Part shown: positions 34,861-43,103 of the stretch, piece after piece | Position numbering within the stretch: position 1 is the stretch's first letter | Layout: every line of letters starts with the position of its first letter | From: Knoellia sinensis KCTC 19936 | Lineage (GTDB): Bacteria; Actinomycetota; Actinomycetes; Actinomycetales; Dermatophilaceae | Length of the DNA stretch: 64,000 bases | Reading direction: 5' to 3' | NCBI RefSeq assembly: GCF_000768705.1 | Contig: NZ_AVPJ01000003.1 | Coordinates: forward strand, 248,001 to 312,000 | Made by a program: the position numbers and the translations under genes | The notes under the pieces: model-generated | Told to the model about the DNA's origin: nothing | The model's input: the letters and a program-made list of their open reading frames with translations, nothing else | Databases searched by the model: none

Positions 34861-35223
34861 TCAGTCCCACTCGAGTCCCCCGCGCTTCCACACATAGGCG
34901 TAGGCGACGAACACGGTGAGGATGAACAGCACCATCTCGACAAGCGCGAAGAGGCCGAGCTGGTCGAAGGCGACGGCGAACGGGTAGAGGAACACCGACT
35001 CGATGTCGAAGATGATGAAGAGCATCGCCGTGAGGAAGTACTTGATCGGCACGCGACCACCGCCGTGGGCGCGCGGCGTCGGCTGGATGCCGCACTCGTA
35101 GGGCTCGGACTTCGCGCGGTTGTAGCGCTTGGGTCCGACGACGAGGCTCGTACCCACCGACAGCGCTGCGAAGCCGAAGCCGAGCGCGAGGAGGAAGAGG
35201 ATCGGGACGTAGGGGTTGCTCAT
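34861..35223 (-). CDS. nuoA: NADH-quinone oxidoreductase subunit A
   Basis: This 120-residue subunit has three spans. It carries 'SEPYECGIQPT' (the conserved loop near the quinone cavity), 'RVPIKYFLTAMLFIIFDIESVFLYPFA' and 'FVAYAYVWKRGGLEW'. The ATG overlaps the stop of the upstream reductase gene (ATGA), so the reductase and complex I are translationally coupled. Confidence 0.96.
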   Translation of the reverse strand: MSNPYVPILFLLALGFGFAALSVGTSLVVGPKRYNRAKSEPYECGIQPTPRAHGGGRVPIKYFLTAMLFIIFDIESVFLYPFAVAFDQLGLFALVEMVLFILTVFVAYAYVWKRGGLEWD

Positions 35224-36524
35224 CGCTGATCAACTCCCCTTTCGTTGCCAGGGTGTGCGGCGGCGCTGGTCACGCGCCCCATCGTAGAGGTCGTGACGCA
35301 GGTCTCAAGAGCGGCACGGTTCGGCGTGGTGAGGCGCCGGAGGACAAGCTTCATGAGGGCCTCCCGCGGGAGCGCCCACGTCGTGACGGCTCGCGTCACC
35401 GACGGACGTTCGAGGAGGCTGGTTGCGGTGCGTGCGAACCGGCGGTGAGAGCCCAGCGCGTCACGCACAACCGTGTCGTATGCCGTGAGCTCACCTTCGC
35501 GTTCCGCTGCGGTCCCGAGTGCGAGGGCTCGGTCCACCGCGGCCGCCGCGAGGCGCGCGGAGATGAGGGCCGACGCGACGCCTTCACCGGTCCAGGGGTT
35601 CGCGAGACCCGCCGCGTCGCCGAGGCGAAGCACACCGTTCTCGTGCCGTGGAGTGAGGTGTGACCCCGTGGCCAACCGGCCACCCTCGATCGGGCCGGTC
35701 ATCGTCGCCGCGCTGAGTTCCCAGTTGCCGGGAAGCGCCCGGAGCCACTGCTCGAGGACGAAGGCGCACTTCTCGGTCGTGGCACTCGTGTCGCTGGCCA
35801 GGGCACCGACCCCAACCGTGACGTGGCCGTCGCCGCGACCCACGATCCAGCCGTGACCGGGGAGGGTCGCGCCGTCGGCGTCCGCGAGGCGGAGCCAGGA
35901 CTCCACGTGGTCGTCGGTGCCGCGCGGGCTCGCGAAGTCCGCCGTCACCGCGACCGCACCCTCCGACTTTGTGCCCGACTGGGACACCCCCTCCCCCGAC
36001 TTTGTGCCCCACTGGGACAGGCCCAGACCGGACGCGTCGATGACGACACCTGCCTCAATGCGGCTGTCGCGGCCATTTGCCCCGCGTAGCGACACCCCGC
36101 TGACGCGACCCGACTCGTCGGTCGCGAAGCCCGTGACCTCGGAACCGAAGCTGATGTGCACGCCGCGACTCACGGCATACGCGGAAAGGGTCTGGGCCAG
36201 AGCGGAACGCGAGCGGACGAGGCCGTGGACTGGTCGCCCGTCGACGTCGGGCCAGGCCAGCGCGAGGCGCATGCCGCCACCGACGAAGCGGACTCCCGTC
36301 GTGCGGTGCCAGGTGTCGGTCTCCGAGGCGGGGAGGCCCAGGGTCGCGAGCTCGGAGACTGCCGTCGGCGTGAGGGCCTCTGCCGAGTCGGAACCGGAGT
36401 GGTCGGCCGCGCGTTCAAGGACGAGGACGTCGTGTCCGGCTGCGCTCAGGTGTGCCGCAGCAGCGGAACCGGCCGGGCCGGCTCCGATGACGACGACGTC
36501 TGCACGCGCAGTGGCGAGGGTCAC
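35220..36524 (-). CDS. geranylgeranyl reductase family FAD-dependent protein
   Basis: The product is about 434 residues. 'ADVVVIGAGPAGSAAAAHLSAAG' is the FAD loop; 'GLRNP..'-type second FAD motif appears as 'GDAAGLANPWTGEGVASAL'. Family members reduce isoprenoid double bonds, for example in menaquinone tails. It is the first gene of the nuo operon and diverges from nothing; menG lies upstream on the same strand. I prefer the GTG at 36524, seven bases after AAGG, to the GTG at 36530. About 20 residues (SQWGTKSG and a near repeat) are encoded by a DNA repeat inserted after the 'VVIDASGLG' strand. Confidence 0.8.
   Translation of the reverse strand: MTLATARADVVVIGAGPAGSAAAAHLSAAGHDVLVLERAADHSGSDSAEALTPTAVSELATLGLPASETDTWHRTTGVRFVGGGMRLALAWPDVDGRPVHGLVRSRSALAQTLSAYAVSRGVHISFGSEVTGFATDESGRVSGVSLRGANGRDSRIEAGVVIDASGLGLSQWGTKSGEGVSQSGTKSEGAVAVTADFASPRGTDDHVESWLRLADADGATLPGHGWIVGRGDGHVTVGVGALASDTSATTEKCAFVLEQWLRALPGNWELSAATMTGPIEGGRLATGSHLTPRHENGVLRLGDAAGLANPWTGEGVASALISARLAAAAVDRALALGTAAEREGELTAYDTVVRDALGSHRRFARTATSLLERPSVTRAVTTWALPREALMKLVLRRLTTPNRAALETCVTTSTMGRVTSAAAHPGNERGVDQR
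35963..36018. repeat. two tandem half-copies of the GACTTTGTGCCC repeat inside the reductase gene
   Basis: CCGACTTTGTGCCCGACTGG begins at 35963 and CCGACTTTGTGCCCCACTGG at 35996, a 33-base (11-codon) period. The core is shared with the palindromic repeat inside menD at 42464. They lie in frame and add repeated SQ-x-GTKS peptides to the protein. Confidence 0.85.
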
Positions 36525-36539
36525 GAACACACCTTGCTT

Positions 36540-41315: not shown

Positions 41316-43103
41316 TCAGCCCGAAATCGCCAGTGCAGCGCGCGCGACTTCGCGGAGCCGCTCGTGCGCGCCCCGGTGCGATTCGGCGTCGACCGGCACC
41401 TCGACGACGGTGATCCCGGCCGGCTTCGCGGACAACGCTTCGGCTGCCGCTTCACGCGTCTCGGCAAGAACGTGGCGTATGCCGTGTGCTCGGCACAGTG
41501 CCCCGAAGTCCGTTCCGGTCGGGGTGCCGAAAATGCGGGTGAAGTCGTCGGCCCGCTCGGGGGCCCCGTGCTCAAGGGTCCGGAAGATGCCTCCGCCCCC
41601 GTCGTTGGTGACGAGGATCGTGAGGTCCGGGTGCGGCTCGTCAGGGCCGACGGCGAGGGCGTTGGAGTCGTGGAGGAAGGTCAGGTCTCCCACCCAGGCG
41701 TAGCTGGGCGCATCTGTCGTCAGGGCCAGTCCGATGGCCGTGGACAGGCAGCCGTCGATGCCGGCCAGGCCTCGGTTGGCCGCGACCGTCAAGGGGGCCG
41801 ACCGGGGGGTCAAGCCGAGGTCGAGGTCGCGCACGGGGTTCGACGACCCGACGAAGAGCTGGGCGCCATCGGGCAGGGACTCCCCCACCACCGAGGCGAC
41901 CGCGAGCCCGGTCCCCCATGGCGCTGCATCCTTCTGAACTGCCTCTGCCACAAGCGATCCGGCATCCCGCCAAGACGTGGCCCACGACTCGTCGACGACG
42001 ACGTCACCCGTCGCGCGACCGATCAACTCGGTCAGCTCACCCACGCGTGAAACCACGTGACTGGGATCTGCCCAGTCAGGACCCGCCGGATGGACGTGGA
42101 CCTCGACGCCCTCCGCGCGCAGCAGGCCGCCGACCGCGCGAGAAAGGGTGACCCGACCGGCAACGACGATTCGGTCTGGCAGGTGGGCTCCAACCCATTC
42201 ACGGTCTGTGAGGAGCAGAGGCCCATGCGGGATGACCAAGGATCTGTCGTGGTCGCCCACGGGCTCCGCGATGACAGGGAAGCCCTGGGCTCGAGCCCAC
42301 GCGACAACCTGGCTCGAGCGAACGGACGAGAAGGTGAGGTCACCGACGACGACCAGGGTCCGCGGCACATCGGCGATCGATTCCGCGCCGCTGAACCATC
42401 CATCCCCTGGCACCTGCACCCACGGCGCCCCGTCAGCCCGCCCCTCATGAACCCCGGATCCATCCCGACTTTGTGCCCCAACGGGACGCGTCGAGCGGGC
42501 CGAAGGCCCCGCGGACGTGCCCCGTTGGGGCACAAAGTCGGGGGTGAGGGGGTCGCGGAAGCCGACGTTGAGGTGGACCGGACCACCGGCACCGGCGAGC
42601 GACCCGCCCATCAGGTCGCCGAGGGCGGCGGAGAGTGCGCGGCATACGGAAGTGCGGTGGAAGGCACCCACCGACTCGACGGACTCCGGCGCGGGCAGGT
42701 CCACCGACCACCGCACGGCTCCGCCGAAAATGCCCGGCTGCACCGTGGTCTGGTTGGCCCCGGTCCCGCGCAACTCCGCTGGACGATCCGCTGACAGCAC
42801 GATGAGAGGCACGCCAGTGTGGTGCGCCTCGAGCACCGCGGGATGCAGGTTCGCCACCGCAGTGCCCGACGTCGTGATCACGGGGACCGGCGTGCCAGAA
42901 CCCTTCGCCAGGCCCAGCGCCAGGAACCCGGCCGTCCGCTCATCGACCCGCACGTGGAGGCGGAGGCGACCTTCCCGCTCGGCCTGTTGCACGGCATACG
43001 CCAAAGGAGCCGAACGCGAACCCGGAGCGAGGACGACCTCGCGAACGCCACCGCGGATCAACTCGTCCACGAGGACGTGAGCGAGCGCGGTGGACGGATT
43101 CAT
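41316..43103 (-). CDS. menD: 2-succinyl-5-enolpyruvyl-6-hydroxy-3-cyclohexene-1-carboxylate synthase
   Basis: This 595-residue ThDP enzyme joins isochorismate and 2-oxoglutarate. 'VVLAPGSRSAPLAYAV', 'VRVDERTAGFLALGLAKGSG' (with the catalytic Glu), 'ITTSGTAVANLHPAVLEAH', and the C-terminal ThDP/Mg motif region 'WVGDLTFLHDSNAL' with 'LVTNDGGGGIF' are all present. Residues ~187-213 are encoded by a palindromic DNA element inserted in frame between the N-terminal and central domains. The ATG shares one base with the stop of the DUF3817 gene. Confidence 0.93.
   Translation of the reverse strand: MNPSTALAHVLVDELIRGGVREVVLAPGSRSAPLAYAVQQAEREGRLRLHVRVDERTAGFLALGLAKGSGTPVPVITTSGTAVANLHPAVLEAHHTGVPLIVLSADRPAELRGTGANQTTVQPGIFGGAVRWSVDLPAPESVESVGAFHRTSVCRALSAALGDLMGGSLAGAGGPVHLNVGFRDPLTPDFVPQRGTSAGPSARSTRPVGAQSRDGSGVHEGRADGAPWVQVPGDGWFSGAESIADVPRTLVVVGDLTFSSVRSSQVVAWARAQGFPVIAEPVGDHDRSLVIPHGPLLLTDREWVGAHLPDRIVVAGRVTLSRAVGGLLRAEGVEVHVHPAGPDWADPSHVVSRVGELTELIGRATGDVVVDESWATSWRDAGSLVAEAVQKDAAPWGTGLAVASVVGESLPDGAQLFVGSSNPVRDLDLGLTPRSAPLTVAANRGLAGIDGCLSTAIGLALTTDAPSYAWVGDLTFLHDSNALAVGPDEPHPDLTILVTNDGGGGIFRTLEHGAPERADDFTRIFGTPTGTDFGALCRAHGIRHVLAETREAAAEALSAKPAGITVVEVPVDAESHRGAHERLREVARAALAISG
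42464..42542. repeat. 79-base palindromic element inserted in frame in menD
   Basis: The outer arms (42464-42485 and 42521-42542) are a perfect 22-base inverted repeat beginning CCCGACTTTGTGCCCC. The 35-base middle holds a smaller imperfect hairpin (GCGGGCC-GAA-GGCCCCGC). The menD frame passes through without a stop. Related half copies are at 35963-36018. Confidence 0.9.

Follow-up and report, generated by a model that had tools for sequence, protein, structure and literature searches.

Repeats of the REP type are widespread in bacterial genomes, and to our knowledge the only established dedicated partner of a REP is an HUH (Y1) protein. In the REP/RAYT system, as far as the consulted portions of the reports describe it, the repeats form inverted doublets and the cognate gene is flanked by two inverted repeat units (PMC2817692, PMC3116915). 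The CGTC-tagged repeats, which include RPE-4 and RPE-6, appear in the consulted portion of a further report as head-to-head dimers, some of them in frame within genes, with no transposase association (PMC3733652), and Janibacter, Intrasporang-, Streptomyces, Mycobacteri- and Actinobacteria are not mentioned in its main text. Here we analyzed a palindromic element that lies within the menD gene of the soil bacterium Knoellia sinensis KCTC 19936, in a stretch of 64,000 nucleotides referred to below as the window (contig NZ_AVPJ01000003.1, positions 248,001 to 312,000). The element is a dimer of two inverted 22-nt units and belongs to a family dispersed over the genomes of Knoellia, in which a gene encoding an AbiEi-like half joined to a Vsr-like half is bracketed by the same units. 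Judged from comparisons of sequence, element and gene probably form a REPIN-like system whose nuclease partner is not an HUH protein. The original prediction had likened the palindrome to the Rickettsia palindromic elements; the in-frame insertion does agree with that likeness, but REPIN/RAYT is the better analogue because a dedicated protein gene framed by units exists. No description of the repeat family, or of an AbiEi-nuclease protein tied to repeats, was found in the accessible portions of the open-access literature searched, in line with the earlier statement that no such family had been described in this group.

Within the window, nucleotides 42464-42485 are repeated in perfect inversion at 42521-42542, with an inner hairpin between them. 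As RNA, the palindrome folds at -70.7 kcal/mol, compared with a mean of -34.67 for shuffled sequences (z -9.9), and none of the 200 shuffles equaled it. It lies in frame at about residues 188-213 of MenD (open reading frame 41316-43103, minus strand; NCBIfam TIGR00173, E 3e-113), and the alignment of six Knoellia orthologues agrees with a reading frame that stays intact through the element, so that the perfect 22-base inverted repeat, the inner hairpin, and the unbroken frame were all confirmed. With borders taken from 62 aligned elements of the same genome, the left unit, CGACTTTGTGCCCCAACGGGAC, occupies 42466-42487 on the plus strand, and the right inverted unit, which differs from it by one letter, occupies 42519-42540 on the minus strand. 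The outermost base pairs, 42464-42465 with 42541-42542, therefore fall outside the family consensus, while the 31-nt spacer between the units with its inner hairpin, GGGCCGAAGGCCC (42488-42518, no strand assigned), belongs to the long spacer class. The core GACTTTGTGCCCC, with at most two mismatches, was found six times in the window against 1.32 expected, and the 14-mer CGACTTTGTGCCCC, with at most one mismatch, at 145 places in the whole genome (3,987,063 bases in 61 contigs) against one for the reversed-pattern control. The element is thus present elsewhere in the genome, and the same peptide was absent from the 10 MenD orthologues that were aligned (six from Knoellia and four others), which leaves the idea of a small dispersed hairpin repeat that is able to sit in frame in genes well supported.

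The anatomy of the unit was read from 62 distinct K. sinensis pairs, picked with the pattern GAC[TC][TG]NNTGC[CG]C and arms matching in at least 17 of 22 letters. In the main dialect of this genome the 22-nt arm is C-GACTTTGTGCCC-S-NN-TGGGAC, and its commonest spelling is CGACTTTGTGCCCCAWTGGGAC. The border of the unit is sharp, since pairing includes the C that adjoins GAC on its outer side in 62/62 pairs and the next position out in 34/62. The outer end reads CGACT, with the outer C found in 62/62 K. sinensis pairs and in 35/35 pairs of the compared genome HTCC2649; GAC itself belonged to the picking pattern, so its conservation is not independent. Positions 13, 14, and 15 vary among elements, and at each of them the two arms of an element agree in 61 of 62 cases, against expectations of 33.9, 39.6, and 32.6. 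The length from GAC to GTC falls into two classes, 59-63 and 71-75 nt, for 129 of 132 elements from nine genomes, the other three being longer composites, and many sites have spacers of the same type. The family also includes half units and tandem arrays, such as an array with a 54-nt period at G000:C61:46673-47058 (L109; G, C, and L numbers are our labels for genomes, contigs, and loci), which by eye stands between a glnK-like and a glnD-like gene. Four complete dimers were observed within about 650 bp of HTCC2649 (G007:C1:4117406-4118053, L228).

Inverted pairs were counted with the pattern GACTKNNTGCSC, followed after N28-58 by its inverse. All nine Knoellia genomes contained them, with 76 in K. 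sinensis and 51, 40, 30, 29, 27, 24, 23, and 21 in the others, while a control pattern yielded none. Outside Knoellia, 177 other genomes of the taxonomic family were searched with the same pattern and eight gave a match, of which four were convincing, namely G204 and G213 with eight pairs each and G211 and G214 with two each. The remaining four had single matches: the arms of the G034 and G043 pairs have little in common past the pattern letters, G134 has a perfect palindrome without a close partner homologue, and the palindrome in G202 is imperfect. The spelling of the inner half differs by genome, being TTCGTGCCC..ACGGAC in HTCC2649 and TTCTTGCCC..TGGGAC in Knoellia subterranea, and GATTGCGCAGGAGCGAC is one of the spellings in G004. 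Exact pairs of the K. sinensis dialect occurred in K. sinensis alone among 117 genomes, and none was found in a second contig collection that possibly did not include the K. sinensis record; a species-private family was nevertheless rejected when the degenerate head pattern revealed the relatives. A covariance model, R1, was also set aside for counting. It scored in eight of the nine genomes, but gave 0 in G001 despite 29 pattern pairs, and only 22.8 bits on the menD palindrome of Knoellia remsis; as the model rests mainly on pairing, the pair counts were taken from the pattern search. The idea that the element is an uptake sequence was discarded because the units are nearly always paired and few.

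The position of the elements relative to genes was determined from crude codon-based gene calls, with intragenic cases decided by translation and family models. Convergent gaps and tandem gaps each held 25 of the 62 K. sinensis elements, divergent gaps held 4, and the other 8 overlapped a predicted gene. Among the 50 elements with an adjacent gene end, 42 lay no more than 25 nt behind the stop codon, compared with 506 of 2855 control placements in convergent or tandem gaps, and convergent gaps held 25 of the 54 elements without gene overlap, compared with 597 of 3794 controls. The same preference was seen in HTCC2649, where 20/35 elements lay between convergent genes and 26/29 were within 25 nt behind a stop. 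A G+C-rich, very stable hairpin behind a gene is a terminator-like feature, but a run of at least four T within 12 nt was present at only 1 of 124 element ends; therefore, the elements are not classical intrinsic terminators, although they sit where an mRNA 3′ end would lie. Further hairpins at gene ends of these regions have sequences unlike theirs. In-frame pairs were confirmed in this way in menD and in the genes for a DnaE-type polymerase, TreY, a major facilitator superfamily transporter, and an AMP-ligase, and in the DnaE-type gene the element occupies the same site in K. sinensis, HTCC2649, and K. subterranea, each time in the local spelling. Our impression from these sequences is that in-frame copies tend to fall in linkers or loops. 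The earlier suggestion that the repeat targets solvent-exposed loops was not borne out, however, since the usual place is the gene end and the in-frame pairs are a minority.

A search for the Y1 transposase family PF01797 was negative in all nine Knoellia genomes, while the control was found in 8 of 14 named genomes (other transposase families were not searched for); with a looser cut-off, applied to K. sinensis as the only Knoellia genome, the result was again negative and the control was found in 10/14. A frame of 351 amino acids was found instead in a gene-call gap between two half-unit arrays on contig C5 of K. sinensis. This partner gene lies at C5:77158-78210, and a second one is on C59. 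Close homologues with 48%-100% identity were present in 9/9 Knoellia genomes, at 12 loci with one or two per genome, and more broadly 2-9 AbiEi-nuclease relatives matched at E 1e-5 in each of the nine. Units stood on at least one side of the gene at 12/12 of the Knoellia loci and on both sides at 11/12, the exception being the K. subterranea locus at a contig end. The flanking units are mostly tandem and face each other, and some are complete dimers. Paired arrays of CGACT-type units were absent at 17 distant relatives inspected in the same way.

The association extends beyond Knoellia. Close homologues (>240 bits) were found in 9 of 25 chosen genomes of the taxonomic family, and their 10 loci had units or another inverted repeat at both gene ends, except for one at a contig end. 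At several loci, for example in G213, G211, G214, and G039, the reading frame extends at its 3′ end into the repeat. In G213 and G204 the elements were found before the proteins; the G213 homologue then proved to lie between two of them, one of which it enters at its 3′ end, and in G204 the homologue is about 100 bp from a previously found element. Exact inverted repeats of at least 15 nt in the 350-bp flanks were found at 14/20 close homologues, 10/27 distant ones, and 0/147 control genes; at a threshold of at least 13 nt, the numbers were 14, 16, and 2. Several distant AbiEi-nuclease genes were observed to be bracketed by long inverted repeats of unlike sequence (L331, L366, L368). The compared regions also contain other palindromes, such as GACCAATAGG..CCTATTGGTC (G007:C1:1013639, 1043794; G000:C33:55113, 72649).

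The partner gene is largely resident, yet it is found at three different places. Seventeen of 20 partner loci fell into three sets with common neighbors, the K. sinensis C5 locus on one side only, and three had no match. Relative to the same neighbors, the orientation of the gene differs between species in one of the sets, as if it had been inverted by recombination between the flanking inverted units; the two orientations are seen at L339, L340, and L344-L347 versus L314, L319, L341, and L342. The second partner copy of G008 is split over two frames (L320, L327; G008:C4:51634-52550), and most of the G008 elements compared still match its unit, which suggests a decayed partner with a leftover population.

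The partner protein of about 350 amino acids is predicted to consist of an AbiEi-like half and a Vsr/PD-(D/E)XK-like half. A structure model built with 48 homologues reached a pLDDT of 93.7 and a pTM of 0.91, and replaced an earlier 11-sequence model with a pLDDT of 55.9, which was not used. Residues 1-193 align with AbiEi (6y8q) at Z 8.3 and a root-mean-square deviation (rmsd) of 6.1 over 178 residues, and the top Foldseek match was Rv2827c (E 3.3e-4). Residues 198-309 align with the homing endonuclease I-Bth0305I (3r3p; Z 7.9, rmsd 3.0, 96 aligned) and with Vsr (1cw0; Z 7.4, rmsd 3.2, 109 aligned), the identity to Vsr-type structures being 10%-18%. At the sequence level, the PADLOC AbiEi models matched 46/48 members, Pfam AbiEi_4 15/48, DUF559 4/48, and MTES_1575 2/48, while NCBIfam matched none of 11 close homologues and a sequence search of the PDB gave no match. 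D156, E201, Q219, D234, E245, D247, G248, and K251 are invariant in 48/48 members, and the C-terminal half thus carries an invariant E, D, E-x-D-G-x-x-K pattern. The ratio of nonsynonymous to synonymous substitution rates (dN/dS) was 0.12-0.41 in nine pairs, with dS near saturation. According to the consulted portion of the report on AbiEi and Rv2827c, such proteins are autoregulators, and the two bind 23-bp inverted repeats but not each other's (PMC7319586), in agreement with a unit of 22 nt and with recognition that is specific to the dialect.

If the partner recognizes its units, dispersed elements should resemble the units at the partner gene of the same genome. With ties shared, 129.3 of 185 dispersed elements best matched a partner unit of their own genome, and none of 20000 label shuffles reached the observed mean; one G004 element flanking a partner gene was left out, and the outcome was the same with it included (186). 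By genome, the match was 57.5/62 in K. sinensis, 30.5/35 in HTCC2649, 11/12 in G001, 10/13 in G008, and 6/6 in G213, with lower values of 5.8/12 in G005 and 4/7 in G204. The G005 score was halved by ties, since its unit as typed is identical to the C59 unit of K. sinensis. Similarity between proteins was also correlated with similarity between units (15 units, r 0.44, reached in 0/10000 permutations).

Comparison with sister species showed how often the elements share a place. At the point of the menD insert, inserts were also present in Knoellia flava, Knoellia aerolata, and K. remsis, and there was none in K. subterranea, Knoellia locipacati, and HTCC2649. The K. remsis insert is by eye a near-perfect palindrome of another spelling, with an arm that matches the G003 partner unit at 19/21 positions; the arm of the K. 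flava insert best matches the second G004 unit (17/21), and the K. aerolata insert has decayed. In an unbiased 160 kb of the K. sinensis genome, 2 of 10 elements corresponded to an element at the orthologous position of HTCC2649, or 3 of 11 when one truncated element is counted, and the rest faced no family element. At L079/L119, the spacer and a variable GAA were kept while both arms had changed to the dialect of the other genome. The general claim that elements at shared places are old and were rewritten in place was dropped, the pattern being clear only at this pair.

The comparisons show that the nuclease gene and the element are associated, and we infer that the nuclease moves the element. 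The dimer, two inverted 22-nt units around a short spacer, would form a long hairpin and be one member of a REPIN-like population. The AbiEi-like half would bind the 22-nt units, the nuclease half may nick or cut the DNA there or within the hairpin once it is extruded, and the dimer might then be copied or moved through repair or reinsertion. New copies would survive mainly just behind stop codons, where the hairpin does little harm or could serve as an mRNA 3′ end, whereas survival in frame within a coding region, as in menD, would be rare. The partner gene would mostly stay at its locus and diverge together with its units, giving rise to the dialect of each lineage.

Several observations weigh against this explanation. 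All of the support is comparative. The dialect match was 0/11 in G006, 0/12 in G002, and 0/2 in G003, and only 4.5/13 in G004. A long exact inverted repeat was missing at 6 of the 20 close homologues; at one of these six the flank is cut. At the protein level, Z values of 7-8 can reflect common structural arrangements, and Pfam nuclease families matched none of the close homologues scanned. A forward prediction in a second genus was weak under a strict test: with the unit taken from the partners of G200 and G199, two dispersed pairs were found in G200 in addition to the flank of the gene itself, G199 had none, and G198 had one. The G200 pair that was inspected is flanked by convergent reading frames, which end 7 and 15 nt away from it. 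The spacer of the orthologue was the best match in only 1 of 10 shared-place rows and tied in one more; with so few counterparts, descent at shared places is mostly unproven. A clean target-site duplication is unreadable because DNA differs by about 20% between the species; arm pairing drops from the second position outside GAC, and the empty sites are too diverged to read. Our confidence, both in this explanation and in its extension to a wider protein class, was lowered slightly by the three genomes with a score of 0 and by the three locations of the partner gene.

The same data were weighed under three other explanations. The dimers could be host binding sites at which an AbiEi-like regulator or nucleoid protein, with a nuclease domain put to another use, holds or marks gene ends; the dialects would then track shifts in its specificity, and the sites would have spread by selection and not by movement. 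Binding of 23-bp inverted repeats by AbiEi-type autoregulators (PMC7319586, consulted portion) agrees with this, as do units that flank the partner gene as operators would, the very strong gene-end placement, and the retained spacer with switched arms at L079/L119. Yet units are found at both ends of the partner gene and not just at its promoter, the catalytic-type residues that a pure regulator would not need are invariant in 48/48 members, and half copies and in-frame insertions (menD, TreY, DnaE-type) would be odd for regulatory sites. The recurring spacer types and the 8 of 10 elements without a sister counterpart also fit copying and loss better, and we regard host binding sites as unlikely.

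Still less credit is due to the view that the elements are ordinary gene-end hairpins, acting as terminators or mRNA 3′ ends and duplicated by recombination, with the bracketed nuclease a coincidence. Their place directly behind stops, often between convergent genes, their great stability, and the presence of other gene-end hairpins of different sequence would all be expected. A sharp 22-nt unit with conserved letters that a hairpin does not need, T runs at 1/124 ends, bracketing of the partner at 14/20 loci versus 0/147, and dialect matching not reached in 20000 shuffles make it very improbable. We give the least weight of all to a miniature inverted-repeat transposable element, which would have arisen by deletion from an insertion sequence that has terminal repeats of 22 bp and a conventional transposase not yet seen. 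Inverted terminal units around a short interior suit such an origin, and the three locus types mean that the partner has moved or been duplicated at least a few times; but the only gene found between units is the AbiEi-nuclease, 17/20 of its loci have common neighbors, unlike those of a freely hopping insertion sequence, and no target duplication was seen, with transposase searches confined to PF01797. Our preferred explanation is thus still a REPIN-like system whose nuclease partner lies outside the HUH class.

Further members of the family lie in frame in a second gene of the window, which encodes a geranylgeranyl-reductase-like (MenJ-like) flavin adenine dinucleotide enzyme (35220-36530, minus strand; TIGR02032, E 6.8e-44, 150.7 bits, under the cut-off of 158.8). 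Half unit 1, CGACTTTGTGCCCGACTGGGAC, is at 35964-35985 and half unit 2, CGACTTTGTGCCCCACTGGGAC, at 35997-36018, both on the plus strand and hence opposite to the gene. The core copies are at 35965 and 35998, and one has a single mismatch (CCCG for CCCC). The spacing of 33 bases, the frame, and the orientation agree with what the original prediction had described, and the copies can now be named as half units of the same family. Among four aligned Knoellia orthologues, those of K. flava and K. locipacati have a shorter related peptide, which is doubled in the K. sinensis gene.

A different abundant sequence was noticed in the same genomes. Copies of the octamer CGGCATAC (GTATGCCG) numbered 157 in 224 kb of K. 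sinensis, against 6.8 expected from tetranucleotides, and 160 in 230 kb of HTCC2649, with the strands about even (21 and 23 in the window). It is preceded by A in 93 of the 157 K. sinensis copies, and it also occurs in inverted pairs within gene-end hairpins. Between 3 and 20 copies were present in 21 of 26 named loci of 10-18 kb (between L134 and L206), none in Arsenicicoccus piscis, Nostocoides sp. F2B08, and two Cellulomonas, and one in an Arthrobacter. The octamer resembles a DNA uptake sequence and fits that role better than the hairpin element does, and no report of it was found in the accessible portions of the open-access literature searched.

If a second, unrelated nuclease does serve such repeats, the combination of a repeat with a resident cognate nuclease would be a recurring solution, and the system would offer a natural control for the purpose of the partnership. 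Because the species dialects come with matching proteins, recognition can be tested directly by exchanging proteins and units; AbiEi-nuclease relatives of unassigned role, which are common in these genomes, gain a possible substrate, and the element family accounts for odd in-frame insertions in MenD and the DnaE-type polymerase. We tentatively suggest, with somewhat less than even confidence, that the AbiEi-Vsr proteins are a large unrecognized class of actinobacterial repeat-associated nucleases, each subfamily with its own bracketing repeat and gene-end dimer population. Unlike gene-end palindromes would then be the populations of different members, independent of the HUH-based REP/RAYT system.

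Compared with known systems, the family shares head-to-head dimers and in-frame insertions in genes with the CGTC repeats and RPE, but it differs from the CGTC repeats (CGTC tag, 8-9 bp stem, 4-5 nt loop) in tag, stem, and loop, and its intragenic copies are a minority. The N-terminal fold of the partner is that of the AbiEi antitoxins (Streptococcus agalactiae AbiEi, Mycobacterium tuberculosis Rv2827c), which, however, are not joined to a nuclease-like half, and the repeats here are dispersed over the genome and not restricted to the gene. The C-terminal fold is that of Vsr-type nucleases (Vsr, the homing endonuclease I-Bth0305I), although here it is joined to an AbiEi-like half. RAYT/REP proper was ruled out, as PF01797 is absent from 9/9 Knoellia and both tag and partner differ: the outer tag is CGACT and not GTAG, and the actinobacterial partner is an AbiEi-Vsr-like protein of unrelated fold. 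The arrangement nevertheless parallels REPIN/RAYT, with inverted doublets of units of about 20 nt, a spacer, a predicted hairpin, and many mostly extragenic copies per genome, and with a partner gene, here for an unrelated protein, placed between two inverted units at 11 of the 12 Knoellia loci.

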